Origin: Rhodospirillaceae bacterium
GTDB lineage: Bacteria > Pseudomonadota > Alphaproteobacteria > SHVP01
Direction of reading: 5' to 3'
Assembly: GCA_002722055.1 (NCBI GenBank)
Contig: PBKD01000006.1
Coordinates: forward strand, 1-64,000
DNA length: 64,000 nt
Position 1 is the first letter of the stretch. The number at the start of each line of letters is the position of its first letter. The notes beneath the pieces were generated by a model, which was not told where the DNA came from, searched no databases, and saw only the letters and a program-made list of their open reading frames with translations. This document shows, one piece after another, positions 18,525 through 36,099 of the stretch. Made by a program: the position numbers and the translations under genes.

Positions 18525-19373
18525 TTGGATGGGCTGGATTTGAGTAAAAATTTTGAATTTTATGTAAAATTTTGGGGTGTAAGAGGTAGTATTGCATGTC
18601 CGGACCAAGATGTATTTAAGTATGGAGGGAATACTTCCTGTGTTGAGATAAGGTGTGGAAATGAGATACTTATTTTTGACTCAGGCACAGGTATTAGATA
18701 TTTAGGTAATGAATTAGCTAAGGAAGATAAATCTAATTATAGAATTTTATATTCTCATACTCATTATGATCATATATGTGGGCTTCCATTTTTTTCCCCT
18801 GCCTTCAACCCAAAAAATAAAATCGAATTTCTTGCTGGACACCTTAAGCCTAGAAATAACATCAAGAATGTTTTATCAAGTATAATGAGTGATCCAGTAT
18901 GGCCTGTTGGCTTGGATATTTTTCCTTGCAGTATTGAATTTAAAGATTTCATAGCTGGAGAAACTTTATCATTCTCAGAAAATATAATTATTAATACTTG
19001 CCCCCTAAACCATGAAAATGGAGCTACAGGTTATAGAGTTAATTTTAATGGAAAGTCTATTTGCTATATTACTGATACGAATCATCTTCCAGATCAGCCA
19101 GATAAAAATATAATTAATCTAATCAAAGAAGCTGACCTTGTAATATATGATTCTATGTTTACAGAAGAAGAATTTAAAGATAGGCCTCATTGGGGTCACT
19201 CAACTTGGGAGGAAGGTGCAAAATTATGTGATTTAGCAAACGCTGATCGATTATGTATTTTTCATCATGACCCTTCGCATAATGATTTATTTATGGATAA
19301 AATTGCTATTGATGCAAATAAAAAAAGGCCTGGTACCATAGTAGCTAGAGAAGGCCTAAAAATAGTCCCATAG
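18525..19373 (+). CDS. Metallo-beta-lactamase-fold hydrolase
   Basis: A 282-residue MBL-fold protein. The metal motif HTHYDH is at 78-83, further ligands are H163, D184 (TDTNH) and the C-terminal HHDPSHND (H247/H248). The N-terminal FWGVRGSIACP and YGGNTSCVEIR are typical of the cyclic-phosphodiesterase/PhnP-like branch, so a nucleotide or phosphodiester substrate is plausible but not shown. The start is uncertain: I used TTG at 18525 because no in-frame ATG precedes the first strand; TTG at 18540 is an alternative. Likely co-transcribed with the response regulator and the methyltransferase 11 nt downstream. Confidence 0.88.
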   Translation: MDGLDLSKNFEFYVKFWGVRGSIACPDQDVFKYGGNTSCVEIRCGNEILIFDSGTGIRYLGNELAKEDKSNYRILYSHTHYDHICGLPFFSPAFNPKNKIEFLAGHLKPRNNIKNVLSSIMSDPVWPVGLDIFPCSIEFKDFIAGETLSFSENIIINTCPLNHENGATGYRVNFNGKSICYITDTNHLPDQPDKNIINLIKEADLVIYDSMFTEEEFKDRPHWGHSTWEEGAKLCDLANADRLCIFHHDPSHNDLFMDKIAIDANKKRPGTIVAREGLKIVP

Positions 19374-20207: not shown

Positions 20208-21377
20208 TTATTTATATGGATCTGCAGCATCTCTAAGACCATCACCAAAAAAATTAAGAGCTAGAACTGTAATTATTACAGGAACAACAGGAAATATTAA
20301 CCATGGATGAAGCGCTACAGCATTAATATTTTGAGCTTCATTTAATAAAACACCCCAACTTGTAATTGGTGGCCTTAGGCCTAAGCCCAAAAAAGAAAGA
20401 GCTGTTTCTCCTAGAATCATTGCTGGAATCGAGAGAGTTGCTGAAGCTATCAAGTGGCTCATAAATGATGGTAAAAGATGTCTTCCTATTACTCTTTTGG
20501 GGCTTGCACCCATTAGAACAGCTGCAGTTGCAAAGTCCTCCTCTCTTAAAGATAGTAATTTAGATCTTACTGCGCGAGCTAATCCAGTCCAGTCAATTAA
20601 TCCTAAAATAATTGTTATTCCCAAATAAATTAAAATCGGACTCCAAGTTGCAGGCAATGCAGCTGATAATGCCATCCATAGAGGTAATTCGGGAAAAGAT
20701 CTAATTATTTCTATACTTCTTTGAACCAAGCTATCAACCCAACCCCCAAAGTAACCTGCTAACCCTCCCAAAGTTATACCTAGTATGAAACTTATTGTAA
20801 TTCCGATTAGTCCAACTGTTAATGAAATTCTAGTACCATAAATTATTCTTGATAGCATATCTCTACCAAGTCGGTCTGTTCCTAAAATATATAGATAACC
20901 CTTTTTAGAGGGACAAAATAAATGAAAATTTGAATTAAACATTCCCCAAAATTTATACGTATCTCCGTTGCATAAAAATCTAATTTTATAGATTTTATTT
21001 TTGCTTATTGTGTATTCTCTCTCCAAAGTTTCAGTATTTAAAACCTTTTTATATCCATACACAAAAGGCCCAACAAATTTTCCATCGTGAAATAAATTTA
21101 TGGACTGTGGTGGGGCAAAAATATTTCTTCTATCTCTTGAGTCTAAAGCGTAAGGTGCTAAAAATTCACTTACTAAAATAGAAAAATACATAAATAAAAG
21201 TATACATCCAGAGTAAATTGCTAATTTATGTCTCAATAATTTCCACCACATCATTTTCCATTGAGATGCCATGAAAAATTTTTCTTGAGATGCTGTCATC
21301 TTTTCAACAGATAGAGGGTCGAAAGGTTTTTTATTTACATAATGTTCTATTATCTCATTATTTTCAGTATTACTCAT
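20208..21377 (-). CDS. Family-5 ABC importer, permease 2 (DppC/YejE-like)
   Basis: A 389-residue inner-membrane permease of the peptide/nickel/oligosaccharide type. It has an N-terminal helix (about 48-70), a large periplasmic loop holding LGTDRLGRDMLSRIIYG (a hallmark of DppC/OppC), then five more helices with the EAA loop around GASPKRVIGRHLLPS that docks the ATPase. The N-terminal loop is longer than in DppC and resembles YejE. It overlaps permease 1 by 4 bp (ATGA), so translation is coupled. Last gene of the long minus-strand array. Confidence 0.92.
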   Translation of the reverse strand: MSNTENNEIIEHYVNKKPFDPLSVEKMTASQEKFFMASQWKMMWWKLLRHKLAIYSGCILLFMYFSILVSEFLAPYALDSRDRRNIFAPPQSINLFHDGKFVGPFVYGYKKVLNTETLEREYTISKNKIYKIRFLCNGDTYKFWGMFNSNFHLFCPSKKGYLYILGTDRLGRDMLSRIIYGTRISLTVGLIGITISFILGITLGGLAGYFGGWVDSLVQRSIEIIRSFPELPLWMALSAALPATWSPILIYLGITIILGLIDWTGLARAVRSKLLSLREEDFATAAVLMGASPKRVIGRHLLPSFMSHLIASATLSIPAMILGETALSFLGLGLRPPITSWGVLLNEAQNINAVALHPWLIFPVVPVIITVLALNFFGDGLRDAADPYK

Positions 21378-22399
21378 TTTGCTGCACTTTCACCTAATCT
21401 TATTCTTGGATCAAGGGCTGCTAATGCTAAATCGGAGATAAACATCCCTACTACTGTTAGAAGAGCTAGTCCCATTAGAAAGGATCCAGCTAAATACTGA
21501 TCTTGTGATTGAAGAGCTTGTAATAGCATTGGGCCGGTAGTAGGAAGAGATAAAACTACTGAAACTATTGCAGCTCCTGATACAACTTGAGGTAAAAGAT
21601 TCCCTATATCTGCTATAAATGGATTTAAAGACATTCTTAATGGATATTTTACTAAAGTTTTGAAGTCATGAAGACCTTTTGCTTTAGCAGTAGTAACATA
21701 TTGTTTTTGTAGTTCGTCTAATAAATTAGCTCTTAGCCTTCTTATCATGCCGGCAGTACCTGATGTTCCAATAACAACTACTGGCACCCATAAATGCTCT
21801 AACACAGACATAAATTTATCAAATGACCATGGTTGATCTAGAAATTTTTCATCCATTAATCCGCCAATTTCAGTTCCAAACCAAACATTAGCAAAATATA
21901 GTAAAACTAAAGCTAAAAGAAAGTTAGGGGTAGCTAGCCCTAAGAAGCCAATTAGTGTGAGAGAATGATCCCCTATGCTATATTGATGAGTGGCTGAGTA
22001 AACGCCAATAGGAAAAGAAATTACCCATGTAAAAATTATTGTAGCAAAGGAAACAATTATCGATAACCATATTTTATCACCTATAACATCACTGACAGGC
22101 ATATCAAACTCAAAAGATTGACCAAAGTCTCCCTGAAGAAGACCAGAAAACCCTTCATTCCCAGGCAGAACACCTAACCAAATCCCATACTGTTGCATAA
22201 AGGGTTTATCAAGACCGTACTGTTCTCTTAAAAAAGCAATACGTTCCGCAGCAGCAGAGTCACCCTGAGATTGAAGTTCTAAAAGTTGATTTGATAAATA
22301 ATCTCCAGGGGGGAGTTGTATTATTAAAAATATAAGAAAGCTAATTACCAGTAGGGTTGGTATCATAACAAAAATTCTTTGAATTAGATAATTGAACAT
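21374..22399 (-). CDS. Family-5 ABC importer, permease 1 (DppB/YejB-like)
   Basis: A 341-residue inner-membrane permease. It begins with MFNYLIQRIFVMIPTLLVIS, the usual DppB start, followed by a periplasmic segment with REQYGLDKPFMQQYGIWL and GDFGQSF, five more helices, and an EAA loop (TTAKAKGLHDFKTLVKYPLR). Pairs with the next gene to form the channel. It lies 18 nt after the solute-binding protein gene. Confidence 0.93.
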   Translation of the reverse strand: MFNYLIQRIFVMIPTLLVISFLIFLIIQLPPGDYLSNQLLELQSQGDSAAAERIAFLREQYGLDKPFMQQYGIWLGVLPGNEGFSGLLQGDFGQSFEFDMPVSDVIGDKIWLSIIVSFATIIFTWVISFPIGVYSATHQYSIGDHSLTLIGFLGLATPNFLLALVLLYFANVWFGTEIGGLMDEKFLDQPWSFDKFMSVLEHLWVPVVVIGTSGTAGMIRRLRANLLDELQKQYVTTAKAKGLHDFKTLVKYPLRMSLNPFIADIGNLLPQVVSGAAIVSVVLSLPTTGPMLLQALQSQDQYLAGSFLMGLALLTVVGMFISDLALAALDPRIRLGESAAK

Positions 22400-22417
22400 T
22401 AATTTTTAAACCCTTAA

Positions 22418-24352
22418 TTATTCTAACCAAAATGTATCTGGCATATAGATACCAAAATGAGCGCCTGGGTCCCAATTATATATCCCATCTTTAGGAACAT
22501 TTTTTAGATTTTTTTTTACTACAATGGGTTGTTTTACGCCAGAAACAATTCCAATAGTGTAGACTTGTTCTGCGTGGATATCGAGCATATCTTGCCAAAT
22601 TCTCTTTCTTAATTTTTGATCAGATGTATTTTGCCATTTAACCAATAATTCATTAAGTAATTGAACTTCTTTTAGTTCCACTTTTTCTCCAGACAACCCT
22701 CTTGTTTCAATATATTGACCCCACTTTGGCCATTGAAACTGTTGTTGAGAGGTTACAGCTAATTCTCTTGGTTCAAAATTTCTAGTTGGAATTCCATTTT
22801 CTAGACCCGACCAGACAGCCATCATTGTTTCACCAGAAAAAATCCTATTTCTTAAAACGTCTCTTTGTGATGGTTTAGAAAATAATTTTATACCAATTTC
22901 TTCCCAGCTTTCTTTTATTAATTCTAAAACATCTGTTTCTTCTTCACTTTCGCCAGAAGTTTCAACAATTATTTCCAGTCTTTTTCCATTTTCCATTATT
23001 CTGAAGCCATCACTATCTTTATTAATTGTTCCAATTTCATCAAGTAGATCATTTGCTTTATCCGTATCATATTGTGTCCAAGAAGTTTTATATTTTTCTT
23101 TGTAAAGCTCACTTTCTTGCAAAACAGTATTATTACTCTCCGAAGCCAGGCCAAAATATAATGCTTCGTTCACTAGTTCTCTATCTATGCTTAATGAGAG
23201 AGCTCTTCTAAATCTCACATCCCTAAATAATTTTTTTAGAATCTCATTATTAACGTTTAGATTTGGGAAAAGAGCTATATGAGATCCTTTAGCTCCCTTC
23301 CAAAGATATGTTTTATACTTTGAGTCGTCTCCAAGTTTAATCTCATTCTTTTTCAAGAAAGGAAAACTTTTTAGACTTATATTTCTCGCTTGTAAATCAG
23401 ACTCACCCGCACCTGCCTTTGCCGCTATAAGTGAGGCAGAAACTTGTGAAAACTTTACTTGATTTAAATAAGGTAATTGTCTTCCATTTTGATCTACCCT
23501 GTGAAAGTATGGGTTTTTTTTAAATATATATCTTGTTGCAGGGGGTCTAGTTGAGTTGAACCATGGTTGAAGAGTAGGAAGGTCTGGGTTATCAAATTTG
23601 TATAAGTTATCCTTCTTGTTATGTATAGCTGCCCAATTTCTTTTACTCTTATTATTTTTTTTTATTTTTTCTTCAGAAGTATATTTAATATGAAATTGTT
23701 TTAGATAATGGGCTGGCCGGTATATGAATAGTGGAGAGGCGCTAGCTAACCGATTTAAAAAAGATACTTTGGGGTTTTTCCATTCATATTGAACTGTATA
23801 CTTATCAATGATTCTGAAAATTGGAGGTTCATTATTCTGTATCATATCATTTGGTGGGCCCGAAGGAGATAGTTTTTTATTATTTGCTACATCCTGCCAC
23901 CAATATCTGAAATCTTCTGAGGTAAAATCTGCGCCATCTGACCATTTATGACCTTTTCTTAAATATAAAGTAAATTTTTTATTATCTTCAATTTCAAATT
24001 TCTCAAGTATATCAGGAATTAGTTCTCTATTTATATTATACCCGACTAATCTAGAGTATCCGTATACAACCATAAGACGAATATCTTTAGCACGTCCAAT
24101 AAACATTCTGATCTCTCCTCCATTTTTCCCAGGTTCTTTGACATTAATTACTCTAGGTTTTCTTGGAAGGCGATCTTGAATAGAAGGTAAAGTATTATTC
24201 TCAACTCTCTGAATAAAGTATTCAGATTCTATATATTTTTCAGCTTGAAGTTTCATTGGTATTAGAATAATTAGAGCCACAATCATTGAATATTTAATGA
24301 AGACTCGAGATTTTAACAAATTTGAATTTTTACTTTCTTCACAGTTAAACAT
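22418..24352 (-). CDS. Family-5 extracellular solute-binding protein
   Basis: A 644-residue periplasmic binding protein. A signal peptide (SMIVALIILIPMKLQA, cleaved after LQA) is followed by the SBP_bac_5 fold; LRKGHKWSDGADFTSEDFRYWW is the family signature, and VRFRRALSLSIDRELVN is the second. At over 600 residues it is of the large YejA-like kind that binds peptides, microcin-like or oligosaccharide ligands; the ligand is unknown. I chose the ATG at 24352, which overlaps the ATPase stop by 8 bp; an ATG at 24385 would add 11 residues. Part of the ATPase-SBP-permease-permease operon. Confidence 0.9.
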   Translation of the reverse strand: MFNCEESKNSNLLKSRVFIKYSMIVALIILIPMKLQAEKYIESEYFIQRVENNTLPSIQDRLPRKPRVINVKEPGKNGGEIRMFIGRAKDIRLMVVYGYSRLVGYNINRELIPDILEKFEIEDNKKFTLYLRKGHKWSDGADFTSEDFRYWWQDVANNKKLSPSGPPNDMIQNNEPPIFRIIDKYTVQYEWKNPKVSFLNRLASASPLFIYRPAHYLKQFHIKYTSEEKIKKNNKSKRNWAAIHNKKDNLYKFDNPDLPTLQPWFNSTRPPATRYIFKKNPYFHRVDQNGRQLPYLNQVKFSQVSASLIAAKAGAGESDLQARNISLKSFPFLKKNEIKLGDDSKYKTYLWKGAKGSHIALFPNLNVNNEILKKLFRDVRFRRALSLSIDRELVNEALYFGLASESNNTVLQESELYKEKYKTSWTQYDTDKANDLLDEIGTINKDSDGFRIMENGKRLEIIVETSGESEEETDVLELIKESWEEIGIKLFSKPSQRDVLRNRIFSGETMMAVWSGLENGIPTRNFEPRELAVTSQQQFQWPKWGQYIETRGLSGEKVELKEVQLLNELLVKWQNTSDQKLRKRIWQDMLDIHAEQVYTIGIVSGVKQPIVVKKNLKNVPKDGIYNWDPGAHFGIYMPDTFWLE

Positions 24353-26198
24353 TTGATAATACCCAGTGATTATTTCCGATTTCATTCATTTTAGGTGAAA
24401 ATTTTTCATTTATTATATATTTTTCTGGCCACTTAGATGGGTCTGAAGCTTTTCCATCCATAAGATTTTGAAAATTTAATTTTTTATTTGGATTGGGATC
24501 AGGTACCGCTGCTAAGAGTGCTTTTGTATATGGGTGTTGAGCATTATTGAAAAAATCATATTTTGGCGCTTTTTCTACAATCTTGCCAGCGCACATGACG
24601 ATTATATAATCAGAAATATAATCAATTACAGCTAAATTATGAGAAATAAATAGATAAGTTAATCCTAAGTCTTTTTTTAAATCTTTAAGTAAATTAAGGA
24701 CTTGGGCTTGAATAGAAACATCTAAAGCTGATACAGGCTCGTCACAAATTAGAAACTCTGGTTCTAAAGCTAGTGCTCTAGCAATACCAATTCTTTGTCT
24801 TTGTCCTCCAGAAAAGCTATGTGGATACCTTCTTAATGAAGTTATTGGAAGTCCTACAATATCAATTAGTGATTTTACTTTATTGAATCTATCTTCTTCT
24901 GATCCTAAATTATGTATAATCAATGGCTCATTGATAATATCAAAAACTGTCATTCTTGGATTCAAAGAGCTAAATGGATCTTGGAAAATATATTGAGAAT
25001 TTTTTCTAAAATATAAGATTTCTGATCTTTTTTTTATACTTAATACATCTATCGTATTTTTACTCGTATTTAAGATTATTTGTCCTTTGTCTGGTTTAAG
25101 TGCCCCCATTATAATCTTACTTGTTGTAGTTTTTCCACAACCTGACTCACCCACTAAACCAACACACTCTCCTCTAGGCACATCAAAACTAACATTATCA
25201 ATCGCTTTAATCGTGTTATGCGAAGAATTACTCAAAAATGATTTTTTTCTTGTTATAAATGTTTTGCTCAAGTTTTTAACTTTAAGCACAACTTTATTAT
25301 CTGTTTTTATATTAATTTCCGATCCCAGTGTGGAAATTTTAGAATTGATTTCCCTAATTGGTATTAACCTCTCATTTGAGGACATACCAAATCTAGGGAC
25401 TGCCTTCAATAAAGATTTTAGATAGGGGTGTTGAGCGTTATGAAAAATATCTTTAAGACTTCCGTATTCCATAATTTCTCCATGGTACATAACAATTATT
25501 TCGTCAGCCATGTTTGCTACTACACCTAGATCGTGAGTTATCATAAGTATAGCCATCTTCATTTTGGATTGAAGGTCTTTCATGAGTTTTAAAATCTGGG
25601 CCTGAACGGTTACATCTAGAGCTGTGGTAGGTTCGTCTGCGATTAAAAGGGCTGGTCTACAAATCATAGCCATAGCAATCATAGCCCTTTGTCTTAGACC
25701 GCCAGATAATTCAAAAGGATAAATATCAATTGATTTTGAGGGGCTTGGAAAACCTACTAAATTTAGTATTTCAGCAGTGGCCTCTCTTGCCTCATTATTT
25801 CCTACTTTGTTGTGTAAAAGAAAGCCTTCAGCAATTTGATTTCCAATTGTATGCAAAGGAGATAATGAAGTCATTGGTTCCTGAAAAATTATTGATATTC
25901 CAGAACCTCTAAGCTTTCTCATTTCAAGACTGTTATTTTTTATAGATGTGATTATTGTTTTTTTAAATGAATGTTTAGGATCATAAAATGTTATTTGTCC
26001 TTTTGATACTGTGCCAGTTTTTGGTAAAATTCCCATAATAGATTGAGAAATTACTGATTTTCCAGATCCAGACTCACCCACTATAGCAACAGTTTTGCCC
26101 ATTTGAATCGAAAACGAAACTCCTTTTACTGCTTTGATTAAACCCTCAGGAGCATTAAATTCAACATGAAGGTTGTTTACTGAAAGAATATTATCCAT
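24345..26198 (-). CDS. Double ABC ATPase of the family-5 importer (YejF-like)
   Basis: A 617-residue protein with two complete ATP-binding cassettes in one chain, as in YejF or GsiA. First cassette: Walker A GESGSGKS at 41-48, signature SGGLRQR, Walker B LLIADEPT. Second: Walker A GESGCGKTT around 348-356, signature SGGQRQR, Walker B FLICDEPVSALD. Each is followed by the oligopeptide-transporter C-terminal motif (HPYLKSLLKAVP, HPYTKALLAAVPDP). It powers the two permeases encoded downstream. It begins 17 nt after the PH-like membrane protein gene, so the importer seems to share a transcript with the glycan genes. Confidence 0.95.
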   Translation of the reverse strand: MDNILSVNNLHVEFNAPEGLIKAVKGVSFSIQMGKTVAIVGESGSGKSVISQSIMGILPKTGTVSKGQITFYDPKHSFKKTIITSIKNNSLEMRKLRGSGISIIFQEPMTSLSPLHTIGNQIAEGFLLHNKVGNNEAREATAEILNLVGFPSPSKSIDIYPFELSGGLRQRAMIAMAMICRPALLIADEPTTALDVTVQAQILKLMKDLQSKMKMAILMITHDLGVVANMADEIIVMYHGEIMEYGSLKDIFHNAQHPYLKSLLKAVPRFGMSSNERLIPIREINSKISTLGSEINIKTDNKVVLKVKNLSKTFITRKKSFLSNSSHNTIKAIDNVSFDVPRGECVGLVGESGCGKTTTSKIIMGALKPDKGQIILNTSKNTIDVLSIKKRSEILYFRKNSQYIFQDPFSSLNPRMTVFDIINEPLIIHNLGSEEDRFNKVKSLIDIVGLPITSLRRYPHSFSGGQRQRIGIARALALEPEFLICDEPVSALDVSIQAQVLNLLKDLKKDLGLTYLFISHNLAVIDYISDYIIVMCAGKIVEKAPKYDFFNNAQHPYTKALLAAVPDPNPNKKLNFQNLMDGKASDPSKWPEKYIINEKFSPKMNEIGNNHWVLSNV

Positions 26199-26215: not shown

Positions 26216-26746
26216 TTATTTATCCTTATTATACAAATTAATACCCATAGCTTTAAAGTTTTTTTCTGTATAATAATTAAATAAATAATTATATGAGTAA
26301 GTTTTTGAGGCTATTTCCTCCAGTATTTTGTCAAAACCAGGTATTGAGGAGTGAATTGCTATCTTTTTCTTATTATTAAATAACAATAAAACCATCCAAC
26401 CCTTTTCTTTATCCCTTCTGGTAGAATAATAGTGTAATTTTACTTCAGAAATATCTTTCCATTTTATAATATTTTTATTTATTAGGTTAGTTCTAATAAC
26501 CTCTTTATCAGTGAAGGTAATTTTTGAAAGACTCTTTATAATGAGAAAAGCAAAATATATTGAAAATAATAAAATAAATAAAATAGAAAGAATAAGTATG
26601 GTTTTTGTTATATTCATGATCAGTGAAACATATATTAAGATTGATAACCATAAGACAGTTTGAAATATATTCCATAAATTTGATTGAAGTTTATACTTAA
26701 ATTCTTTTTCTATTTTTATTGTATTATCTTTTTTATTGAGTGCCAT
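26216..26746 (-). CDS. Two-helix membrane protein with bacterial PH-like domain
   Basis: A 176-residue protein that I do not recognise at family level. Two hydrophobic helices lie at about 28-44 and 48-71. They are followed by a beta-rich segment ITFTDKEVIRTNLINKNIIKWKDISEVKLHYY then WMVLLLFNNKKKIAIHSSIPGFDKILEEI, the pattern of a bPH (DUF304-type) domain: strands, a KWKDI turn and a C-terminal helix. It overlaps the deacetylase gene by 31 bp. Its place between glycan and importer genes suggests an envelope role; no function can be given. Confidence 0.7.
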   Translation of the reverse strand: MALNKKDNTIKIEKEFKYKLQSNLWNIFQTVLWLSILIYVSLIMNITKTILILSILFILLFSIYFAFLIIKSLSKITFTDKEVIRTNLINKNIIKWKDISEVKLHYYSTRRDKEKGWMVLLLFNNKKKIAIHSSIPGFDKILEEIASKTYSYNYLFNYYTEKNFKAMGINLYNKDK

Positions 26747-27480
26747 TGAGATCCAGACTTTATTGTAATTCTTATTAACTTATCTAAAAATAAAAACGAA
26801 TCCTCATTCATTACATTATGATGTGTTAGTATACCAATAGGCTCTCTGATCCTGCTATTATTCTCTCTTCTAACTTTAAGTTCAAATATTAATTGATCAA
26901 CTAAATCTTTTTCTCCAGCAAATACTTTATTTTTCTTCCAATCAATTATATCAATATTAGTATTGATTATTTTTGAATACTCTATATTAGTTGAGTGTCC
27001 ACATAAGTTTTTATTGAAAGAAGATACTGCTGTTATCCCTATACATTTAATATGAGGTAAAAGCAGGTGACTCATTCGGTTCCAGGGCGGCACAAAAATT
27101 GGTTGGTATGCTGTCTCAAAATATTCGGAAACTAATTTGGCTCCGTGATGTATATCTTCAAGCATATGTTCTATATTTCTGCTTTCCCCAAATTCAGATT
27201 TTTTCTGTCCATTTGGCTCATAGTTTTTATGTTTAAATCCATGCTGTAAAATCGAAATTAAATCTATAGAATTTAAAATTTTTACTAAGCTTTTTTCTAT
27301 TAAAAATGGAATAACTGCTAGTGAAATAGGAATATTAAATTCTTTTGTGAAACTAATTAGTCTTGTTAATTTTTGCGTTTCTTTGTATGCATCATCATCT
27401 CTTATCCAAAATATTGGATAGATAGATTGGTCGCTCCATTTGGATAATTCTTTTTCTAATTTGCACCAAACTTCATTCAT
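26716..27480 (-). CDS. Polysaccharide deacetylase-like protein
   Basis: A 254-residue NodB-fold (carbohydrate esterase 4-like) protein. WIRDDDAY at 25-32 carries the metal/catalytic aspartates, H80 and H84 in QHGFKH fit the His-x3-His metal site, and FVPPWNR matches the RxPW-like motif 3. The C-terminal LTHHN is the motif 5 region. No signal peptide is present, so it probably acts in the cytoplasm on a sugar precursor or lipid-linked glycan, unlike secreted chitin or peptidoglycan deacetylases. It overlaps the glycosyltransferase by 4 bp (ATGA). Confidence 0.82.
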   Translation of the reverse strand: MNEVWCKLEKELSKWSDQSIYPIFWIRDDDAYKETQKLTRLISFTKEFNIPISLAVIPFLIEKSLVKILNSIDLISILQHGFKHKNYEPNGQKKSEFGESRNIEHMLEDIHHGAKLVSEYFETAYQPIFVPPWNRMSHLLLPHIKCIGITAVSSFNKNLCGHSTNIEYSKIINTNIDIIDWKKNKVFAGEKDLVDQLIFELKVRRENNSRIREPIGILTHHNVMNEDSFLFLDKLIRITIKSGSQWHSIKKIIQ

Positions 27481-28634
27481 TTTATAATATCAGCTATAAA
27501 TTTGTATGTATTTTCTGAACCATTAAATTCTGGTATGCTAAGTTTTAATGGATCTATTTTTATCAACTGTGGTATGTAATTTTTAAGCTTAGATGGGCTT
27601 AGTTCATTTTCTTGTATGATTTTAATATAATTTAAATAGCTATAGTGTCCGGCTCGAATAATTTGATCGCTCTTAATATCCTCCGAAAATGGAATAATGA
27701 TTGATTTTACCCTACCAGATATAATCTCCATAAGAGTATTATAACCTCCCTGGTTAATTGAAATTAAGCAATTTTGAAGGTGTCTATGAAAATTTTTACT
27801 AAATTTTTCAAATACTATATTTCCACCTAATTCTTTTGCTAGTTTGTAGTATTCTTTTTTATTAAAATTACTTTCGTTTATTCCAATTATAATCCTCCAT
27901 TTAAAGTCCATGTTGGGAAAAAGTGATGAAGCTTTAATTGAATTTATAATTATTTTTTTACCAACTGCACCTCCTCCTGCAGAAACTAAAATTTCCTTAT
28001 TATTTTTAAAACCTACATTTATTTTTTTTTGTTTTTCACATACATAACCAGTATAAAATATTTTTTTTATATTTGATTTTTCTAATTTTAGTTTTTGCCC
28101 GATTGAATATACGCTTTCTTCTCCATGAACAAGTATATAGTTATAGTATTTAGAGAGTATAAAATTCAGCTGATCTATCTTTTCTTTTTTTAAGTCACTA
28201 ATTATTATATCTCTTATAGAAGAAATAATAACAGTTTTACCTTTTGTGGCTTGCTTTAAAAGGGGTAAAATTTCGAACTTCATTTGATTTCGACCAAATG
28301 GAAACATTTCGGTGATTAGTATTTCAGGTCTAATTTTATTAAATATTTTTAAGAGTAATTCTTGCCTTTTCTTTTTCAATGCAGCATCAATTTTATTCCC
28401 TTTTTCATCTAATAAGTTTTTAAAATCAGCATTTTCTGATTTTATTGGAGGAAGTTGGACAAATGTCGCGTTGCCAAAATCTATACTAGATATTTTACTT
28501 CCACCCGAAATAACTGTTATATCTAGACCTTTTTTCGATATTAAATTTACAATTATGGAAACCCTTTTTAAATGGCCTATTCCAAGAAGGTGCTGAACAT
28601 AAAATATTATTTTTTTATTCATACTATTTATCAA
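27477..28634 (-). CDS. Glycosyltransferase, GT28/MurG-like (paralogue A)
   Basis: A 385-residue GT-B protein. The N-terminus (FYVQHLLGIGHLKR) contains the GxGHxxR nucleotide-sugar glycosyltransferase start; VSAGGGAVGKK begins the C-terminal Rossmann domain, and SINQGGYNTLMEIISG is the GT28 donor-binding region. It is a diverged paralogue of the gene at 31585-32832. ATG at 28634 or a second ATG four codons later (MNKK) could be the start. Coupled by 4-bp overlaps to both neighbours. Donor and acceptor are unknown. Confidence 0.83.
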   Translation of the reverse strand: MINSMNKKIIFYVQHLLGIGHLKRVSIIVNLISKKGLDITVISGGSKISSIDFGNATFVQLPPIKSENADFKNLLDEKGNKIDAALKKKRQELLLKIFNKIRPEILITEMFPFGRNQMKFEILPLLKQATKGKTVIISSIRDIIISDLKKEKIDQLNFILSKYYNYILVHGEESVYSIGQKLKLEKSNIKKIFYTGYVCEKQKKINVGFKNNKEILVSAGGGAVGKKIIINSIKASSLFPNMDFKWRIIIGINESNFNKKEYYKLAKELGGNIVFEKFSKNFHRHLQNCLISINQGGYNTLMEIISGRVKSIIIPFSEDIKSDQIIRAGHYSYLNYIKIIQENELSPSKLKNYIPQLIKIDPLKLSIPEFNGSENTYKFIADIIK

Positions 28635-29206
28635 ATCATGGAAATTGTAGATGAATAAGTTAATTTATTTATACTGCTAAGATTAAAACTATAAGCATTC
28701 CCACTTTCAATCCTTATTGGAATTTTTCCTATCATTTCCCAGTCTGTAGCTAGAGCAATCGCAGCTCTTATTACACCTTTATGTGTTACACAAACATGAT
28801 TTTTCCCAAATTTTTCAATTGTTTTTAACCATTTTAAGACTCTATTCTGAACCTCCCTCGGTGTTTCACCATTTGTTGGTTTCATATCCAAACCTAAATT
28901 TTCATTTACAATCATCTTTTCACCAAATTCTTTTCGTAAATCAGATAATTTTTTTCCTTCCCAATTACCCCAATTCATTTCAATTAGTGCTGCCTCAATT
29001 TTTGGTTTCTCAGAAAATATTATCTCTGCTGTTTTGGTTGCTCTTTGAAGTGGACTTGACCATAGAGTATAATTTTGAAGATTGATATTCCATTTTTTCG
29101 CATTTTCTTCCCCCTGTCTGCAAATAGGAATATCAGAATGTCCTTGAAGAAGACCAGACAAATTCCATTCTGTCTCCGCATGTCTTATAAATATTATATT
29201 AGTCAT
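28631..29206 (-). CDS. Histidine phosphatase family protein (phosphoglycerate mutase-like)
   Basis: A 191-residue branch-1 histidine phosphatase. The phospho-histidine is H9 in IRHAETEW; R55 (QRATKTA), E76 (EMNWGNWEG) and H142 (THKGVIRA) complete the site. Members dephosphorylate sugars, nucleotides or lipids; given its four-base overlaps with two glycosyltransferase genes, a sugar phosphate (or phospho-glycan) substrate is the best inference. No signal peptide. Confidence 0.9.
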   Translation of the reverse strand: MTNIIFIRHAETEWNLSGLLQGHSDIPICRQGEENAKKWNINLQNYTLWSSPLQRATKTAEIIFSEKPKIEAALIEMNWGNWEGKKLSDLRKEFGEKMIVNENLGLDMKPTNGETPREVQNRVLKWLKTIEKFGKNHVCVTHKGVIRAAIALATDWEMIGKIPIRIESGNAYSFNLSSINKLTYSSTISMI

Positions 29207-30351
29207 TTATCTTTTATATAATTTTCTGAGACTGTATGTAATATTTTGTTTAGTTTTTCAGATGTTATTTTTAAAGATCTATTTGAGTGAATGAAATTTT
29301 CAGCATCAATGCTCATATTATCTCTAAGCATAACATCAGTAAGAAGTTTTTCGACAGCTTTACTAAAATAAATGGGGTTTTTATTTGTAATATCTACTAA
29401 AAATCCACTTTTATTATGTTCTATTATTTCTGAGACACCACCAGACTTTCCTGCAATAATGGGCAGCCCACAAGCTTGTGCTTCTAGGTATGATAAACCA
29501 AAAGCCTCATTTACACCTGGCCATACAAATATATCGCAGCAGTTATACAAGTCAGCTAATTCTGATTGTCCCATTTCTCCAAGAAAAAAAACTTTTTCAT
29601 ACAAAGCGTCTTTTAATATTTTCTCTACATGAGTTTTTTCAGGCCCGATACCAACAATCAAATGAAAAAATTTTTGACTAACTAATTTCATTGATTTTGA
29701 AAGTATTTCATAAGATTCAAGTTTTGAATTATCATTTCTCATCATGGCTACTGTTAAGATCCATGGATCATATTTTGGAATATTAAACTTTGTAGCAAAT
29801 TGTTTTTTTAAAGAAATTTTATTTAAATTTTTTTTGTAAAATATAGATGTATCTGGAAAAGGAGGTAAAATATAATTTTGTTTTTTATTTTCAAAAATTT
29901 TATCTATCTCAATCATATCTCTTTTGGTAAAATTAATAATTGCGTTTGCTTTAGATATTGATTTAAGAGCACTTTTACTTCCATTCATCCATTCTCCAGT
30001 TTCTCTTTTTTTTGCATAGGATGCCTCCAAAATTATATATGGAATTGAAAGTTTTTCACTTATAATTGGGCCAATATAATCAGGAGCTTTATAGTAGCTA
30101 TGGTATGTAAACCAGAGATTAGGTTTTCCGAACTCAATTTTATTTAAGATTCTGTCTATTTCATCTGCAGAGTTATTGTAAATATTTTTTTGTTCAGTGG
30201 ACTTACTTGCATAACTTCTAAAGCGAGAGGGGATAATAACTTCATGACCTAGGTTGTTTAATAATTTAATTATACTTCTTGCAATGTTTCTATCGCCTGA
30301 AACTATATTATGATCAAACGGTTTTAGTGGAGAATAAAATGCTATTTTCAT
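29203..30351 (-). CDS. Glycosyltransferase family 4
   Basis: A 382-residue retaining GT-B enzyme. The C-terminal donor-binding domain shows GPEKTHVEKIL, VFFLGEMGQSELADLYNCCDIFVWPG and the EX7E motif in EAFGLSYLEAQACGLPIIA. The N-terminal acceptor domain starts at once with MKIAFYSPLKPFDHNIVSGDR, the usual form without signal peptide. It overlaps the histidine phosphatase gene by 4 bp and lies 9 nt after the next glycosyltransferase. Sugar specificity cannot be told. Confidence 0.92.
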   Translation of the reverse strand: MKIAFYSPLKPFDHNIVSGDRNIARSIIKLLNNLGHEVIIPSRFRSYASKSTEQKNIYNNSADEIDRILNKIEFGKPNLWFTYHSYYKAPDYIGPIISEKLSIPYIILEASYAKKRETGEWMNGSKSALKSISKANAIINFTKRDMIEIDKIFENKKQNYILPPFPDTSIFYKKNLNKISLKKQFATKFNIPKYDPWILTVAMMRNDNSKLESYEILSKSMKLVSQKFFHLIVGIGPEKTHVEKILKDALYEKVFFLGEMGQSELADLYNCCDIFVWPGVNEAFGLSYLEAQACGLPIIAGKSGGVSEIIEHNKSGFLVDITNKNPIYFSKAVEKLLTDVMLRDNMSIDAENFIHSNRSLKITSEKLNKILHTVSENYIKDK

Positions 30352-30360
30352 CAGTAATAT

Positions 30361-31575
30361 TTAATTTAAAAAAAGTTTTGAAATTTTTTCTATACCGTTA
30401 TGCATAGAAAATTTTTCTTCGATTATTTTTTGGCCCTCTTTCGCTAATTTTTTTCTTTTAATAGGGTTATTTATGAGTTCAAGTATAGCTTTTTTAAGTT
30501 CTTGTACAGATTCGCTTTTTACTAAAATTCCAGAAATATTATTTATAATTAACTCTTCGATACCAGGTAGAGAGGTGCTTATACAAGCTAGGCCCTGACT
30601 TTGGGCTTCCATGAGAACATTAGGAATTCCATCCCTGTCCCCTGTATCAGTAACCTTACTAGCTAATACAAATATATCAGACTCTCTATAAAAATTAAGA
30701 ACTCTATCTTGTGTTAATGTTCCATTCCAATTAATTTTATTGCTTATCCCAAGTTTATCTGAAAGTTTTTTTAATTTTTTATTTAGCGGTCCATCACCTA
30801 TATGTTCTAATTTCCAGTTCAATTCTTTTGGTAATAGTGATAAAGAATTTAATAAAATATCGAAGCCTTTTTTTTCAACCAATCTTCCAACAGATAGTAT
30901 AATTACAGAGTAATCAATTTTTAAATCTTTATGATTTTTTTCTATAATATTTGATGTAGGAAAACGATCAAAGTCAATTCCATGATATACTAAATTTATA
31001 TTTGAGCTTGGACAAATGTCCGAGAGATGTTTAAAGTTTTGTTTTGTACATGTCGTTACCCACAATGCCTCGTCAAGTTTTTTTTTCTTTTCCCATTCAT
31101 TTATTGTCCATATATCTTTAGCATGTGCAGAAATAGAATATGGTTTCTCTAAAATTTTAGAGGCATAGTATGTTACTGATGTTGGTGTATGGAGAAAATG
31201 GGCATGAAGGTGAGTTATTGTTTTAGGCATTTCTTTAGAAAGAACTATTGCTTGAGCAAACCTTCTAATTCTATTAATCGAGAAATCTTTTTTTAGATCA
31301 TTTATCCATTCTTTCTTAGATAACTTATAACCCGGAAGTTTTTTTATTTTTAACCATGATAAAAAAATTTTCAGTGGAGAGAGATATATATACTCAGGTA
31401 GATAATAGACCTTTGCCTTAATTTTTTTATTTAATTGATGTGTAAATTTTTCTCTCGGTCTTCTGAGAGAAAAAATATCTATTTTAAAACCTTTTTGTTC
31501 TAATGCTAAAATTTCTTGAGCAATAAAAGTTTCTGATATTCTTGGATAACCTTTTAAAATAAATGCTATATGCAT
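30361..31575 (-). CDS. Glycosyltransferase family 4 (WcaL-like)
   Basis: A 404-residue GT4 enzyme resembling the colanic-acid transferase WcaL: MHIAFILKGYPRISETFI at the N-terminus, THLHAHFLHTPTSVTYYASK in the acceptor domain, SVGRLVEKKGFDIL and GIPNVLMEAQSQGLACIST in the donor domain. Cytosolic or membrane-associated. It lies 9 nt from both neighbours in the array. Probably adds one sugar to a lipid-linked exopolysaccharide or surface-glycan repeat unit. Confidence 0.92.
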   Translation of the reverse strand: MHIAFILKGYPRISETFIAQEILALEQKGFKIDIFSLRRPREKFTHQLNKKIKAKVYYLPEYIYLSPLKIFLSWLKIKKLPGYKLSKKEWINDLKKDFSINRIRRFAQAIVLSKEMPKTITHLHAHFLHTPTSVTYYASKILEKPYSISAHAKDIWTINEWEKKKKLDEALWVTTCTKQNFKHLSDICPSSNINLVYHGIDFDRFPTSNIIEKNHKDLKIDYSVIILSVGRLVEKKGFDILLNSLSLLPKELNWKLEHIGDGPLNKKLKKLSDKLGISNKINWNGTLTQDRVLNFYRESDIFVLASKVTDTGDRDGIPNVLMEAQSQGLACISTSLPGIEELIINNISGILVKSESVQELKKAILELINNPIKRKKLAKEGQKIIEEKFSMHNGIEKISKLFLN

Positions 31576-31584
31576 ATTTAAAAT

Positions 31585-32832
31585 TTAGGCTCTCTTTAAG
31601 GTTGTGATATTTTTTTCAGTTCTGATATTTAATTTATTATTTACTCTAGGTTCAATAAGCCTATTTACATTCTCTAATCCTTCTAAAAGCCCAGGAACAA
31701 TAATTTCAGATGGTTTTTTTTGTTTTGGCATTTCTTTTAATGCCTGAGCCATTAATTGATAATCAAGTTTACCGTTATCTTCAAGCATTTTGACTAAGCC
31801 TAAGTCTTGAGCTCTAGAAGCCCTAATGTATTGTTCAAATCTAGGAGATGTTCTCGGTATTATTATTGCTTTTTTATCAAGAGATAAGATCTCACAAAAA
31901 GTATTATAACCACCCATGGCAACAATTCCGACCGCATTAGATTCCAGATCTTCCATTTGTACATCAAAAGTTATTGCTTGAACACGCTTGCTTTTTTTAC
32001 ATCTTTTTTTGAACTCTTCTTGAAGTTCAGGTTGCATAAATGGACCAAGCACAAATAAAGCAGAGTAAGGTAAAAGAGGATCATTTTCATAAGCTCTAAG
32101 TACCCACTCAATTAGCTCTTCTCCATCCCCGCCTCCACCAGTTGTTACCAATAAATATGGTTCTTTTTTTGAAAAAAATCTCTCAGTAGAGCTTGAAATA
32201 TTTTTTACTGAACGTCGTAAATAACCAGTATAAGTTATCTTATCTATAACTTTTTTTGGCAAAGGAAGGTCATTAAGAGGTTCATAAATTTGTGGAAGAC
32301 CATAAATCCAGATTTCATCATATAGTTTTCTTAAGACTGGAAGCACATTTTTTCTTTTCCATTCAGGCTCGAGTGCAGCTGATGAGTCTAGGATGTCTCT
32401 TAGCCCAAGAACAAGATGTTTTCCTCTTTCCTTAAGCATTTTAAGTGTGTCAAGAACTTCGCCTCTTAAACCTGTCGGTTCCTTATCCACTATAAAAACA
32501 TCTGGATCAAATATATCTGCGGTATGTTTAATAATAGAAGATCTCATTGAAATTGTTTTATCTATGTCTATAGCTAAATTTAACGTAGTATATTCACCAT
32601 TTTTTAGTTTAATTACCCCAGGAATTCTAACGAAATCCACTCTTGCACTAAAGTCAAAACTTCCAATAATTGGTGAGCCAGATAGAATAAGAACTGATAA
32701 ATCTTCATATTTTTCTACTAGAGAATTAGCTATTGCTCTGCAACGTCTTAAATGGCCAAGGCCCATAGTATCATGGCTATAAATAAGTACCCTTGAGCCA
32801 GAGTGGTTAGATTTAACTAGATTATTATCCAT
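31585..32832 (-). CDS. Glycosyltransferase, GT28/MurG-like (paralogue B)
   Basis: A 415-residue GT-B protein, first gene of the minus-strand array. YSHDTMGLGHLRR at 18-30 holds the GxGHxRR motif; LLVTTGGGGDGEEL begins the donor domain; AMGGYNTFCEILSLDKKAIIIPR is the GT28 donor loop. It shares its layout and several motifs with the gene at 27477-28634, so the array carries an internal gene pair. It is transcribed away from the ABC/CNBD operon, with 133 bp between start codons. Confidence 0.83.
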   Translation of the reverse strand: MDNNLVKSNHSGSRVLIYSHDTMGLGHLRRCRAIANSLVEKYEDLSVLILSGSPIIGSFDFSARVDFVRIPGVIKLKNGEYTTLNLAIDIDKTISMRSSIIKHTADIFDPDVFIVDKEPTGLRGEVLDTLKMLKERGKHLVLGLRDILDSSAALEPEWKRKNVLPVLRKLYDEIWIYGLPQIYEPLNDLPLPKKVIDKITYTGYLRRSVKNISSSTERFFSKKEPYLLVTTGGGGDGEELIEWVLRAYENDPLLPYSALFVLGPFMQPELQEEFKKRCKKSKRVQAITFDVQMEDLESNAVGIVAMGGYNTFCEILSLDKKAIIIPRTSPRFEQYIRASRAQDLGLVKMLEDNGKLDYQLMAQALKEMPKQKKPSEIIVPGLLEGLENVNRLIEPRVNNKLNIRTEKNITTLKRA

Positions 32833-32965: not shown

Positions 32966-35638
32966 ATGGAAAAAAGCATATTTAAGTATATTCTTAGGTT
33001 TAGTAGTAGACAGCAAATAATGTTGACTTTAATGGCTGTGCTTTCTTTTCCTGTTCTTTACATTTTTTATGAATTACCTAAACAAATAATAAATGGTGCT
33101 ATTCAAGGTGATCCAGGGACATTTCCTCAAAAAGCAGAATTATTTGGTATAAATTTTGGCTTTTCTGTCGGCCATATCCAATGGTTAATAATTTTATGTG
33201 TTTTATTTTTAGTTTTAGTGATTATCAACCAAGCATTTAAATATGTCATAAATGTTTATAAAGGCCTTACTGGTGAGAGGATGCTTAGGAGATTAAGATA
33301 TGATCTTTACAGCAGGGTTTTGAGATTTCCAAAAGGAACTTTTAAAAATATGTCTCAAGGGGAGATAATACCAATGATTACTGCTGAGGTGGAGCCCCTT
33401 GGTGGTTTTATTGGAGATGCATTTGCTCAGCCAATTTTTCAAGGAGGTCAACTTTTGGTCATTCTTGGCTTTTTATTTGCCCAAAACCCTTTTATGGCTG
33501 CTGCTGCTGTAGCACTTTATCCTATCCAGCTTTACCTAATTCCTAAATTACAAATGAGAGTTAACCTATTAGGAAAAGAACGAGTCAGAAGAGTCAGGAC
33601 CTTGTCTGATAGAATAGGAGAAACTGTTCAAGGTGTTGAAGAAGTACATGTTCATGACACCTCAAGGAGAGAAAGAGCAGAATTTTCATATCAATTAGGT
33701 GGTATTTTTCAAGTAAGATATAAGATTTATAGACAAAAGTTTTTTATAAAATTTGTAAATAATTTTATTCAACAATTAGGTCCATTTTTCTTTTATTCAA
33801 TTGGAGGGTATTTAGTAATTAAGGGCAGTCTTGAAGTTGGAACATTAATGGCTGCTATCGCTGCTCATAAAGATTTAGCGTCACCATGGAAAGAGCTTTT
33901 AGGCTATTATCAAAAACAAGCAGACTCAAAAATAAAATATGATCAAGTTATTTCTCAGTTTGAGCCTGTAGATATGATTGATGAATCTGCTCAAACAGAA
34001 GAACCTAAAGATAATAACACATTATCCGGAGAGCTATCACTAACAAATGTTATTCTAAACGATGATCAAGATACTCCTATTGTTGATGGCGCAAATATAA
34101 AATTTTCATTAAATGAGTCTGTAGCGCTTGTCGGAGCTCCTGGGAGTGGACGAGAGGATTTAGCAATGCTACTTGCCCGTGTTATACAACCGTCTTCTGG
34201 TTCAATAAATTTAGCAGGAAATGATATAGCAAATGCCCCAGAGTCTCTTACTGGAAGACGTATGTCTTATGTTGGTTCAGGAGGATACGTTTTTTCGTCT
34301 TCATTAGCTGATAACTTATATTATGGATTAAGGCATAAACAAATAAGTGAAAATCCAGACCAAGAAAAAGCAAGAGAATTTCAATCAACAATTACAACCT
34401 CAGAAGCTTCTGGAAATTCTACTGATGATCCAAATGCAATCTGGACAGATTATACAGCTGCTGGAGCCTCCGATGATGACTCTCTTGTTGAGCAAGCTTT
34501 AAGAGTTTTAGAAATAGCTGATCTAACAGATGACGTTTATCAATTGGGTCTTAGAGGAACTATAAACCCGGAATCAAAAAAACAAACAGCAGATCTTGTT
34601 TTAGAAGCTAGAAACAAGTTTCTTGAAAAAATATCTAATGAAAAAGATTTAGCCAGTCTTGTAGAGTCATTCGATATCAAGGCATATAATACTAATGCAA
34701 CGGTAGGAGAAAATTTAATTTTTGGTAACCCTACTAGTGATGAATTTGATATGAATCATCTAGGAAATCATGAATACGTAATTAAAGTTCTTGATAAAGC
34801 GGGTTTAAAAGCAAAAATGCTTCATACCGGCTATCAAGTAGCCGCAACAATGGTTGAGTTATTTGCCGACTTACCTCCAGATCATGAATTTTTTCAGCAA
34901 TTTAGCTTTATTTCTTCTGAAGAACTCCCAGACTTTCAAGCAATTCTTGGTAGAGTTAGTAAGGATCATTTAGATCAGCTTAAAGAAGATGAGGCAGCAA
35001 AGTTAGTTGGTCTTCCTTTCCTTCTTGTCCCTGCCAGACATAGACTGGGTATTGTTACTGAAGATTTCCAGAGAGATATTCTTGCTGCAAGAAAAATATT
35101 TGCTGACGAACTTCCTGATAGATTAAAGAAAGATATTGAGTTTTATAACTCAAGTAAATATATAAAAGGGGCAACGATTCAAGATAATATTTTATTTGGA
35201 AAAATAGCTTATGGTGAAGCGGAGGCGTCTGACAGAGTTGGCAAGGTTTTAGCTGAGGTAATTGCTGAAATAGGTTTGAGGAAGGCAATAGTAAGTGTAG
35301 GGTTAGACTTTAATGTTGGCATTTCAGGCTCAAGATTAACTCTTGCTCAAAGACAAAAATTAATATTAGCAAGATCTATTATAAAAAAACCCGATGTACT
35401 TATAGTTTCTGATGGTTTATCTGCTATTGAGACTAATGTAGTTGAAGATATAATGAAAAAGCTAGTCAATGAAATGAGTGATAGATGTTTAATCTGGGTT
35501 CTTCCTTCAATTTCGCAAGCATCTTTCTTTAATAAAATAATTGCTATGAAAAAAGGAAAAATAATAAAGTCTGGTAGTTATGAAGAACTTAATTCTGGTG
35601 ATGGTATAGCAAAACTAATTGAAGATAAGAATACATAA
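32966..35638 (+). CDS. Unusual ABC half-transporter with degenerate, expanded nucleotide-binding domain
   Basis: An 890-residue protein; usual half-exporters have about 600. Residues about 15-330 are an ABC exporter membrane domain (helices near 19-36, 73-90, 155-190, 270-290). The ATP-binding domain then departs from the norm: Walker A is GAPGSGRED at 390-398 with R396 instead of lysine; the Q-loop reads YVGSGGYVFS without glutamine; the signature is SRLTLAQRQ at 789-797; Walker B is VLIVSDGLSA (811-820), lacking the D-E pair; the H-loop position is L846/P847. Nearly 400 residues separate Walker A from the signature (about 100-130 normally), and this insert contains three NLxxG-type segments. 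ATP hydrolysis is doubtful. It is followed after 11 nt by a cyclic-nucleotide-binding protein. It probably moves, or senses, a glycan or lipid made by the divergent genes. Confidence 0.85.
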   Translation: MEKSIFKYILRFSSRQQIMLTLMAVLSFPVLYIFYELPKQIINGAIQGDPGTFPQKAELFGINFGFSVGHIQWLIILCVLFLVLVIINQAFKYVINVYKGLTGERMLRRLRYDLYSRVLRFPKGTFKNMSQGEIIPMITAEVEPLGGFIGDAFAQPIFQGGQLLVILGFLFAQNPFMAAAAVALYPIQLYLIPKLQMRVNLLGKERVRRVRTLSDRIGETVQGVEEVHVHDTSRRERAEFSYQLGGIFQVRYKIYRQKFFIKFVNNFIQQLGPFFFYSIGGYLVIKGSLEVGTLMAAIAAHKDLASPWKELLGYYQKQADSKIKYDQVISQFEPVDMIDESAQTEEPKDNNTLSGELSLTNVILNDDQDTPIVDGANIKFSLNESVALVGAPGSGREDLAMLLARVIQPSSGSINLAGNDIANAPESLTGRRMSYVGSGGYVFSSSLADNLYYGLRHKQISENPDQEKAREFQSTITTSEASGNSTDDPNAIWTDYTAAGASDDDSLVEQALRVLEIADLTDDVYQLGLRGTINPESKKQTADLVLEARNKFLEKISNEKDLASLVESFDIKAYNTNATVGENLIFGNPTSDEFDMNHLGNHEYVIKVLDKAGLKAKMLHTGYQVAATMVELFADLPPDHEFFQQFSFISSEELPDFQAILGRVSKDHLDQLKEDEAAKLVGLPFLLVPARHRLGIVTEDFQRDILAARKIFADELPDRLKKDIEFYNSSKYIKGATIQDNILFGKIAYGEAEASDRVGKVLAEVIAEIGLRKAIVSVGLDFNVGISGSRLTLAQRQKLILARSIIKKPDVLIVSDGLSAIETNVVEDIMKKLVNEMSDRCLIWVLPSISQASFFNKIIAMKKGKIIKSGSYEELNSGDGIAKLIEDKNT

Positions 35639-35649
35639 GGAGATTTTTT

Positions 35650-36099
35650 GTGAGTCTTAATGATGAAGTTGAATTACTTAGACAAGTTCCTATATTTGCA
35701 AATATAGAACCAGCAAAGCTAAAATTATTGGCTTTCACTAGCGAAAGACTAACTTTTCGAAAGGGCCTTGATTTATGTGTTCAGGGTGATCCTGGTGATG
35801 CGGCTTTCATAATCATCGAAGGAGAAGCAGACATCATAATTAAAATGGATAACGGCGAATCGAAAACTGTAAATAAAATAGGTAAACATCAGATTGTTGG
35901 TGAAATAGCTATTTTGTGTGATGTTCCTAGAACAGCTACTGTTAGAGCCTCCTCAGATGTAATTGTATTAAGAATCTCAAAGGATTTATTTTTTAGACTT
36001 GTAGGAGAGTTTCCTCAAATGGCAGTTCAAATTCTAAGGGAGTTAGCAGCTAGGCTTGAAAATACTACAACTCAATTAGCAAAAGCACTTGGTAAGTAG
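35650..36099 (+). CDS. Stand-alone cyclic-nucleotide-binding domain protein
   Basis: A 149-residue protein that is almost only a CNBD. The phosphate-binding cassette is intact: G84-E85 in VGEIAIL and R94 in PRTATVRA, so cAMP or cGMP binding is likely. There is a C-terminal helix (about 118-145) but no helix-turn-helix, so it is not a CRP-type DNA-binding regulator. The start is GTG with AGGAG 7 nt upstream, which overlaps the end of the ABC gene region by design. Pairing with the ABC protein suggests that it acts as its ligand-responsive subunit or regulator (inference). Confidence 0.9.
   Translation: MSLNDEVELLRQVPIFANIEPAKLKLLAFTSERLTFRKGLDLCVQGDPGDAAFIIIEGEADIIIKMDNGESKTVNKIGKHQIVGEIAILCDVPRTATVRASSDVIVLRISKDLFFRLVGEFPQMAVQILRELAARLENTTTQLAKALGK

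Follow-up and report, generated by a model that had tools for sequence, protein, structure and literature searches.

An alphaproteobacterial family of ABC exporter-like proteins with a tandemly triplicated helical subdomain, degenerate ATPase motifs and a cyclic-nucleotide-binding partner

We found that an ABC exporter-like protein, P0001, encoded in a 64,000-nucleotide stretch of alphaproteobacterial DNA (the window), carries a nucleotide-binding domain (NBD) whose helical subdomain, the stretch that opens with the Q-loop strand and closes with the signature helix, has almost certainly been triplicated in tandem. In the family to which P0001 belongs, the residues for canonical ATP hydrolysis have been lost in most members and the NLxxG turn of each copy has been kept. 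The family is a variant of the ABC exporter kind that is undescribed in the papers we could search, and its duplication is supported. A preliminary description of the window had proposed the repeat; the family-wide decay of the ATPase motifs, the conserved cyclic-nucleotide-binding partner and the wide occurrence of the family go beyond it.

Table 1. Features of P0001 and its genomic neighbourhood, in window coordinates
Feature	Coordinates	Strand	Basis or remark
P0001, 890-aa pseudo-ABC half-exporter	32966..35638	+	ORF; PF00664 + PF00005; AlphaFold2 mean pLDDT 80.5
Transmembrane domain of P0001, residues 1-335, six long helices	32966..33970	+	PF00664; model helices; conservation
Degenerate Walker A, residues 390-397 (GAPGSGRE)	34133..34156	+	Family counts
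Unit A, residues 433-565	34262..34660	+	Profile comparisons, AlphaFold2 model
Unit B, residues 566-723	34661..35134	+	Profile comparisons, AlphaFold2 model, structure search
Extra helical insert within unit B, residues 634-690	34865..35035	+	Model, conservation; flanking conserved block ELFADLPPDHEFFQQFSFIS...ARHRLG
Unit C, residues 724-806	35135..35383	+	Profile comparisons, AlphaFold2 model
Degenerate Walker B / D-loop, residues 811-822 (VLIVSDGLSAIE; canonical LLLLDEATSALD)	35396..35431	+	Family counts
Cyclic-nucleotide-binding protein, 149 aa	35650..36099	+	PF00027, E 3.8e-20; fused to ABC C-terminus in some relatives
Glycosyltransferase, GT28-C / MJ1255-like	31585..32832	-	Divergently transcribed, conserved neighbour
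GT4-type glycosyltransferase (EpsE-like)	30361..31575	-	Conserved neighbour
GT4-type glycosyltransferase	29203..30351	-	Conserved neighbour
Rest of conserved cluster	26716..29206	-	
Histidine phosphatase	28631-29206	-	
Second GT28-like protein	27477-28634	-	
DUF2334 protein	26716-27480	-	

A Pfam scan of P0001 returned an ABC transmembrane region at residues 62-298 (PF00664, E = 5.9e-23) and an ABC ATPase domain that was split (PF00005, E = 9e-12). The same scan of the 890-residue protein gave no match to a C39 peptidase domain at the N-terminus, and no NCBIfam equivalog was reached. With its PF00664 match, six long helices and an NBD of ABC fold, P0001 has the build of a type IV ABC half-exporter, but it lacks the intact ATPase motifs of that type. 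The AlphaFold2 model was built on 22 sequences, and the pLDDT was about 90 within the NBD. When the modelled NBD was superposed on that of ComA, 239 of 239 ComA residues aligned (2.2 Å, Z = 29.9); since the whole ComA NBD is accounted for, the insert of P0001 is an addition to a complete NBD fold. We discarded a reading of P0001 as a pseudogene or assembly artefact, since its frame is open and 100 full-length relatives conserve it.

The preliminary description had placed three NLxxG-type turns in the NBD, SLADNLYYG at residues 446-454 (34301-34327), TVGENLIFG at 579-587 (34700-34726) and TIQDNILFG at 737-745 (35174-35200), and the translated reading frame bore these positions out (nucleotides 34301-35360 encode residues 446-799). 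Each turn belongs to a unit composed of a strand, an NLxxG helix, a helix pair and a long helix, in that order. In the AlphaFold2 model, units A, B and C open with strands at 433-436, 566-568 and 724-726, continue with NL helices at 447-451, 580-585 and 738-743, and close with long helices at 539-558, 699-714 and 793-806. The Q-loop strand of unit A has no Gln, and a private loop of about 50 residues (455-503; 34328-34474) separates its turn from the helix pair. This loop holds a conserved GNS..D..xDW.DY pattern, in which G483, N484, W493 and D495 are each conserved in over 90% of sequences. Unit B has a helical insert of about 57 residues between its helix pair and long helix that units A and C do not have. 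The conserved block around that insert (residues 631-695; 34856-35050) keeps H692 and R693 in 73 of 79 relatives, F633 in 77/79 and H640 in 68/79, and a metal or ligand site there is conceivable from this pattern. In unit C the helix pair is followed by the signature-like GSRLTLAQRQ, so that, as originally claimed, the third copy is the only one to lead to LTLAQRQ, and the helix that closes it is the genuine signature helix.

To compare the units we built profiles over 79 relatives with mutual identity below 80%, drawn from 100 aligned full-length sequences; separate unit profiles were needed because a canonical NBD compared with the whole family NBD gave one real alignment only. Using hhalign, all three pairs were found to be similar: B with C (98%, E = 5e-13 to 9e-14), A with B (91%, E = 1.3e-6) and A with C (57-64%, E = 1e-4). 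Reversed profiles and transmembrane segments reached 4% at most, and unrelated and column-shuffled controls found nothing. The unit-pair scores were 84.8, 41.7 and 35.7 against shuffle maxima of 17.5, 20.5 and 17.9 (150 column shuffles each), and a sliding profile scan across the whole of P0001 gave matching windows solely over units A, B and C. Once the private loops were removed, A and B aligned along the entire unit, through its last helix and on into the strand that follows (E = 7.5e-13). In HMMER searches the profile of unit B alone also picked up unit C, over profile positions 5-68, in three relatives at E-values between 3.5e-5 and 7.5e-4, and a canonical exporter profile over the NLxxG region matched unit A at 96%, unit B at 58% and unit C at 99.9%.

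The structural comparisons agreed with these results. Folded alone, unit B reached a pLDDT of 87, and in a VIA comparison its top four matches among 427 chains were exporter NBDs (4q7k 411-488, ComA 566-640, MsbA 440-511 and 415-494) with modest scores (Z = 4.2-4.5 over 70-78 residues; the next match, an unrelated one, had Z = 3.2). All four span the Q-loop to the signature helix, which is the helical subdomain. Since a Foldseek search with the isolated unit B gave no significant match, we take the VIA matches as support, short of proof. The same absence, together with a last helix of unit C that shows no sequence similarity above shuffles to the last helices of A and B, would fit an insert of unrelated helical fold whose likeness to NLxxG is chance or local convergence. 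Such an origin is highly improbable given E-values between 1e-4 and 1e-13 that stand against null controls, the detection of unit C by the unit B profile, the shared order of secondary structure and the identity of the top structural matches. Pfam gave no match for unit B alone, and a weak match of its profile to cytoglobin among PDB sequences (E = 0.72) was judged to be chance. Internal duplication of the helical subdomain, as first proposed, is thus well supported by profile similarity, by the parallel secondary structure that AlphaFold2 gave to the three units and by the structural matches of unit B. That the copies provide three surfaces for ligands or partners, which the preliminary description also put forward, is a possible consequence.

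We then examined how widely this architecture occurs. A strong match to P0001 was present in 109 of 289 sampled alphaproteobacterial genomes, and relatives with E < 1e-100 were found in 261 plasmid records, mostly from Rhizobium and Sinorhizobium; full-length relatives also occupied two dozen loci in genome contigs. Across 397 genomes of the phylum, the unit B profile matched solely within the same class, in frames of at least 863 residues, the one exception being a copy split between two frames (794 + 195 residues, genome G634), and no family member with fewer NBD units was found. The triplication predates the separation of the alphaproteobacterial lineages sampled. The only annotations that these proteins bear are 'ABC transporter ATP-binding protein' and 'transmembrane domain-containing protein'. 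Searchable papers, a set outside which subscription journals lie, held nothing on the family or on duplicated helical subdomains, and old locus tags guessed for the rhizobial copies led to no literature.

A second group of relatives, of about 275-410 residues, matched the transmembrane part of P0001 only (27-46% identity). No NBD was found in or beside these transmembrane-only proteins, and the next genes are unrelated (pirin, short-chain dehydrogenase, multicopper oxidase and copper-chaperone-like genes). Standalone loci of this kind include L134:4920-5927, L136:2690-3703, L137:3854-4795, L130:2914-4155 and L107:4-1149. In a quick tree of transmembrane domains, used solely to place these proteins, they sided with the P0001 family against 14 canonical exporters, on long branches. 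Their freedom from any NBD agrees with a membrane domain that is able to work without ATP hydrolysis.

The ATPase motifs of P0001 are degenerate throughout: Walker A reads GSGRE, the Q-loop lacks Gln, the signature reads LTLAQ, Walker B has SD and the H-loop has P. The same decay was seen across the 79 relatives. The residue after the Walker A basic residue is Ser or Thr in only 7/79 and mostly D or E instead; the Q-loop Gln is present in 14/79, SGGQ in 0/79, the Walker B Asp in 17/79, the catalytic Glu in 38/79 and the H-loop switch His in 18/79. The aromatic A-loop residue is mostly absent, and not one of the 79 has all six core ATPase residues together. Canonical exporters retrieved from relatives for comparison keep their ATPase motifs. 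The NLxxG turns of the family, by contrast, are nearly invariant (N450 in 78/79, N583 and N741 in 79/79, F586 in 76/79, F744 in 75/79 and G745 in 79/79), and the conserved N and FG may be structural caps. Judging from these motifs, the family has probably lost normal ATPase activity.

Some features of the site are retained. The P-loop position holds Lys in 38/79 and Arg in 33/79 (K or R in 71/79) and the D-loop Asp is kept in 69/79, so residual nucleotide binding is possible. The altered site, with its GSG-K/R-D/E P-loop, might on this account still bind and perhaps slowly hydrolyse ATP, or the protein might pair with an intact exporter encoded elsewhere, in the manner of the degenerate halves of heterodimeric exporters, with the extra subdomains only tuning the cycle. 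The E or D that stands in 53/79 where the catalytic Glu belongs, the QRQ that follows the signature and several canonical exporters encoded elsewhere in the window genome speak for this alternative. We consider it unlikely in light of the low counts for Ser/Thr, Walker B Asp, SGGQ and switch His, the finding of no exporter-type NBD beside the family gene within flanks of 4-6 kb, and the transmembrane-only relatives, which manage without any NBD.

The gene for the 149-residue cyclic-nucleotide-binding (cNMP) protein starts 11 bases downstream of that for P0001. Its product scored 72.1 bits against PF00027 (cut-off 27.5) and has an intact phosphate-binding cassette, VGEIAILCDVPRTATV (35896-35943), whose key residues are conserved among the partners (Gly in 63/63, Glu in 58/63 and Arg in 63/63). 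Of the 66 loci searched, 60 have a cNMP-binding domain that adjoins the ABC gene or is fused with it; the other six comprise two transmembrane-only relatives, one cut contig and three loci without a match over the cut-off. The fused form, in which this domain ends the ABC chain itself, was seen in at least 11 distinct relatives, with lengths of 1003-1103 residues. The region of the family copy on Mesorhizobium pWSM1497 encodes two class III cyclase-domain proteins and a metallo-beta-lactamase-fold protein. From this gene content, we hold it evenly balanced whether the P0001 family would be controlled by a cyclic nucleotide.

Class III cyclase domains number 11 in the 2.16-Mb window genome and cNMP-binding domains 6, a rich cyclic-nucleotide signalling set for a genome of that size. 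A metallo-beta-lactamase-fold protein at 18525-19373 of the window weakly matches a model of cyclic-nucleotide-degrading phosphodiesterases, and a 40% identical relative of it directly follows the cNMP gene in Mesorhizobium.

Glycosyltransferases adjoin the family gene in about half of the loci, several of which have short flanks. In the window, the glycosyltransferase/DUF2334 set lies upstream and is divergently transcribed, and it also accompanies the family gene on Rhizobium plasmids. A glycan-related role for the family is plausible but tentative; going by its neighbours, its cargo or client would come from the surface glycan or glycolipid pathway of the adjacent glycosyltransferases. An Opp-type peptide importer (permeases, double ATPase and binding protein) lies beside this cluster at 20208-26198, and is likewise close to the family gene set on Rhizobium plasmids.

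The neighbourhood could also be read without any transport, with P0001 as a transmembrane anchor or sensor whose NBD would be a scaffold through which cyclic-nucleotide signalling reaches glycosyltransferases at the membrane. The lost ATPase motifs, the constant cNMP partner, the nearby glycosyltransferases and the unrelated neighbourhoods of the transmembrane-only relatives would all suit such a role. Yet conservation is strongest in the membrane part, with a mean column identity of 0.64 for the transmembrane domain and 0.75 for intracellular loop 1 (ERMLRR..Y.LY.R.LRF....F....GE..PM..EVEP.GGF.G), the latter being the highest of the stretches averaged. Because these are the most conserved regions, a working membrane part is favoured, and we regard a pure scaffold as improbable.

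Our best explanation of the whole, held with modest confidence, is that P0001 is a pseudo-ABC exporter under cyclic-nucleotide control whose NBD serves as a non-ATPase platform. The evidence suggests a transporter-like machine for which some signal, and not the hydrolysis of ATP, is the drive or the gate. The RecA-like and helical subdomains of type IV exporters leave a groove between them that coupling helix 2 occupies (PMC12606247), and in CFTR the NBD1 residue F508 lies where this domain meets the intracellular loops (PMC3434365). In the mechanism we propose, the NBD dimer of P0001 would run no ATP cycle and would act as a docking and transmission platform, in which three subdomain copies per chain would offer six groove edges to two coupling helices. 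One copy would retain coupling to the transmembrane domain, and the added copies would hold the cyclic-nucleotide-binding domain, cytosolic partners or both. If so, it would be a cyclic nucleotide and not ATP that changes the membrane domain, binding of cAMP or cGMP causing it to open, close or flip with no ATP hydrolysis. That these are former ABC exporters whose membrane domain is now moved by a cyclic nucleotide as ligand, in the place of ATP, with the sensor docked at the coupling-helix sites of the triplicated subdomain, is a doubtful extension; if true, P0001 would in effect be a cyclic-nucleotide-gated ABC transporter or channel.

To our knowledge, every ABC exporter relies on the helical subdomain to couple the state of the nucleotide to the membrane. 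A family in nature with this coupler in triplicate, its ATPase residues lost and a cNMP sensor tied to it would separate coupling from ATP hydrolysis and would allow the contacts responsible for coupling to be told apart, in proteins that are common in Alphaproteobacteria, among them laboratory strains of Rhizobium and Sinorhizobium such as R. johnstonii 3841 (RL_RS29995, RL_RS29990) and S. meliloti 1021.

Several known systems share parts of this arrangement. Like P0001, the homodimeric type IV exporters (MsbA, Sav1866 and ComA, NBD structure 3vx4) have a six-helix transmembrane domain, two coupling loops and the NBD fold; P0001 differs in having about 280 residues more in the helical subdomain, in three copies, together with degenerate ATPase motifs and a cNMP partner. 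The heterodimeric exporters TM287/288 and TmrAB also carry a degenerate nucleotide site in an exporter-type half, and there a canonical half, encoded beside the degenerate one, completes the pair. In the P0001 family, however, residues are lost on both sides of the site, and a canonical half was not met in the 4-6 kb flanks. CFTR resembles P0001 in combining an ABC exporter fold with altered ATPase function and is regulated by the cAMP pathway, and its F508 motif, ENIIFG, is what we take to be the same NLxxG turn that is repeated in P0001. Unlike P0001, CFTR is regulated by phosphorylation, binds ATP and has one copy of the turn per NBD, and the two are not closely akin. Bacteriocin-type ABC exporters annotated with a cyclic-nucleotide-binding domain join an exporter to a CAP-family domain, as the P0001 family does. 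The NBDs of those exporters are canonical, and their additions are mostly peptidases or N-terminal, whereas the P0001 family has a degenerate NBD and a cNMP domain that either lies at the C-terminus or is encoded by a gene of its own. Finally, the partner protein shares the full phosphate-binding cassette of the CAP/CNBD family (PF00027), but is without a DNA-binding domain and is tied to a transporter-like gene.
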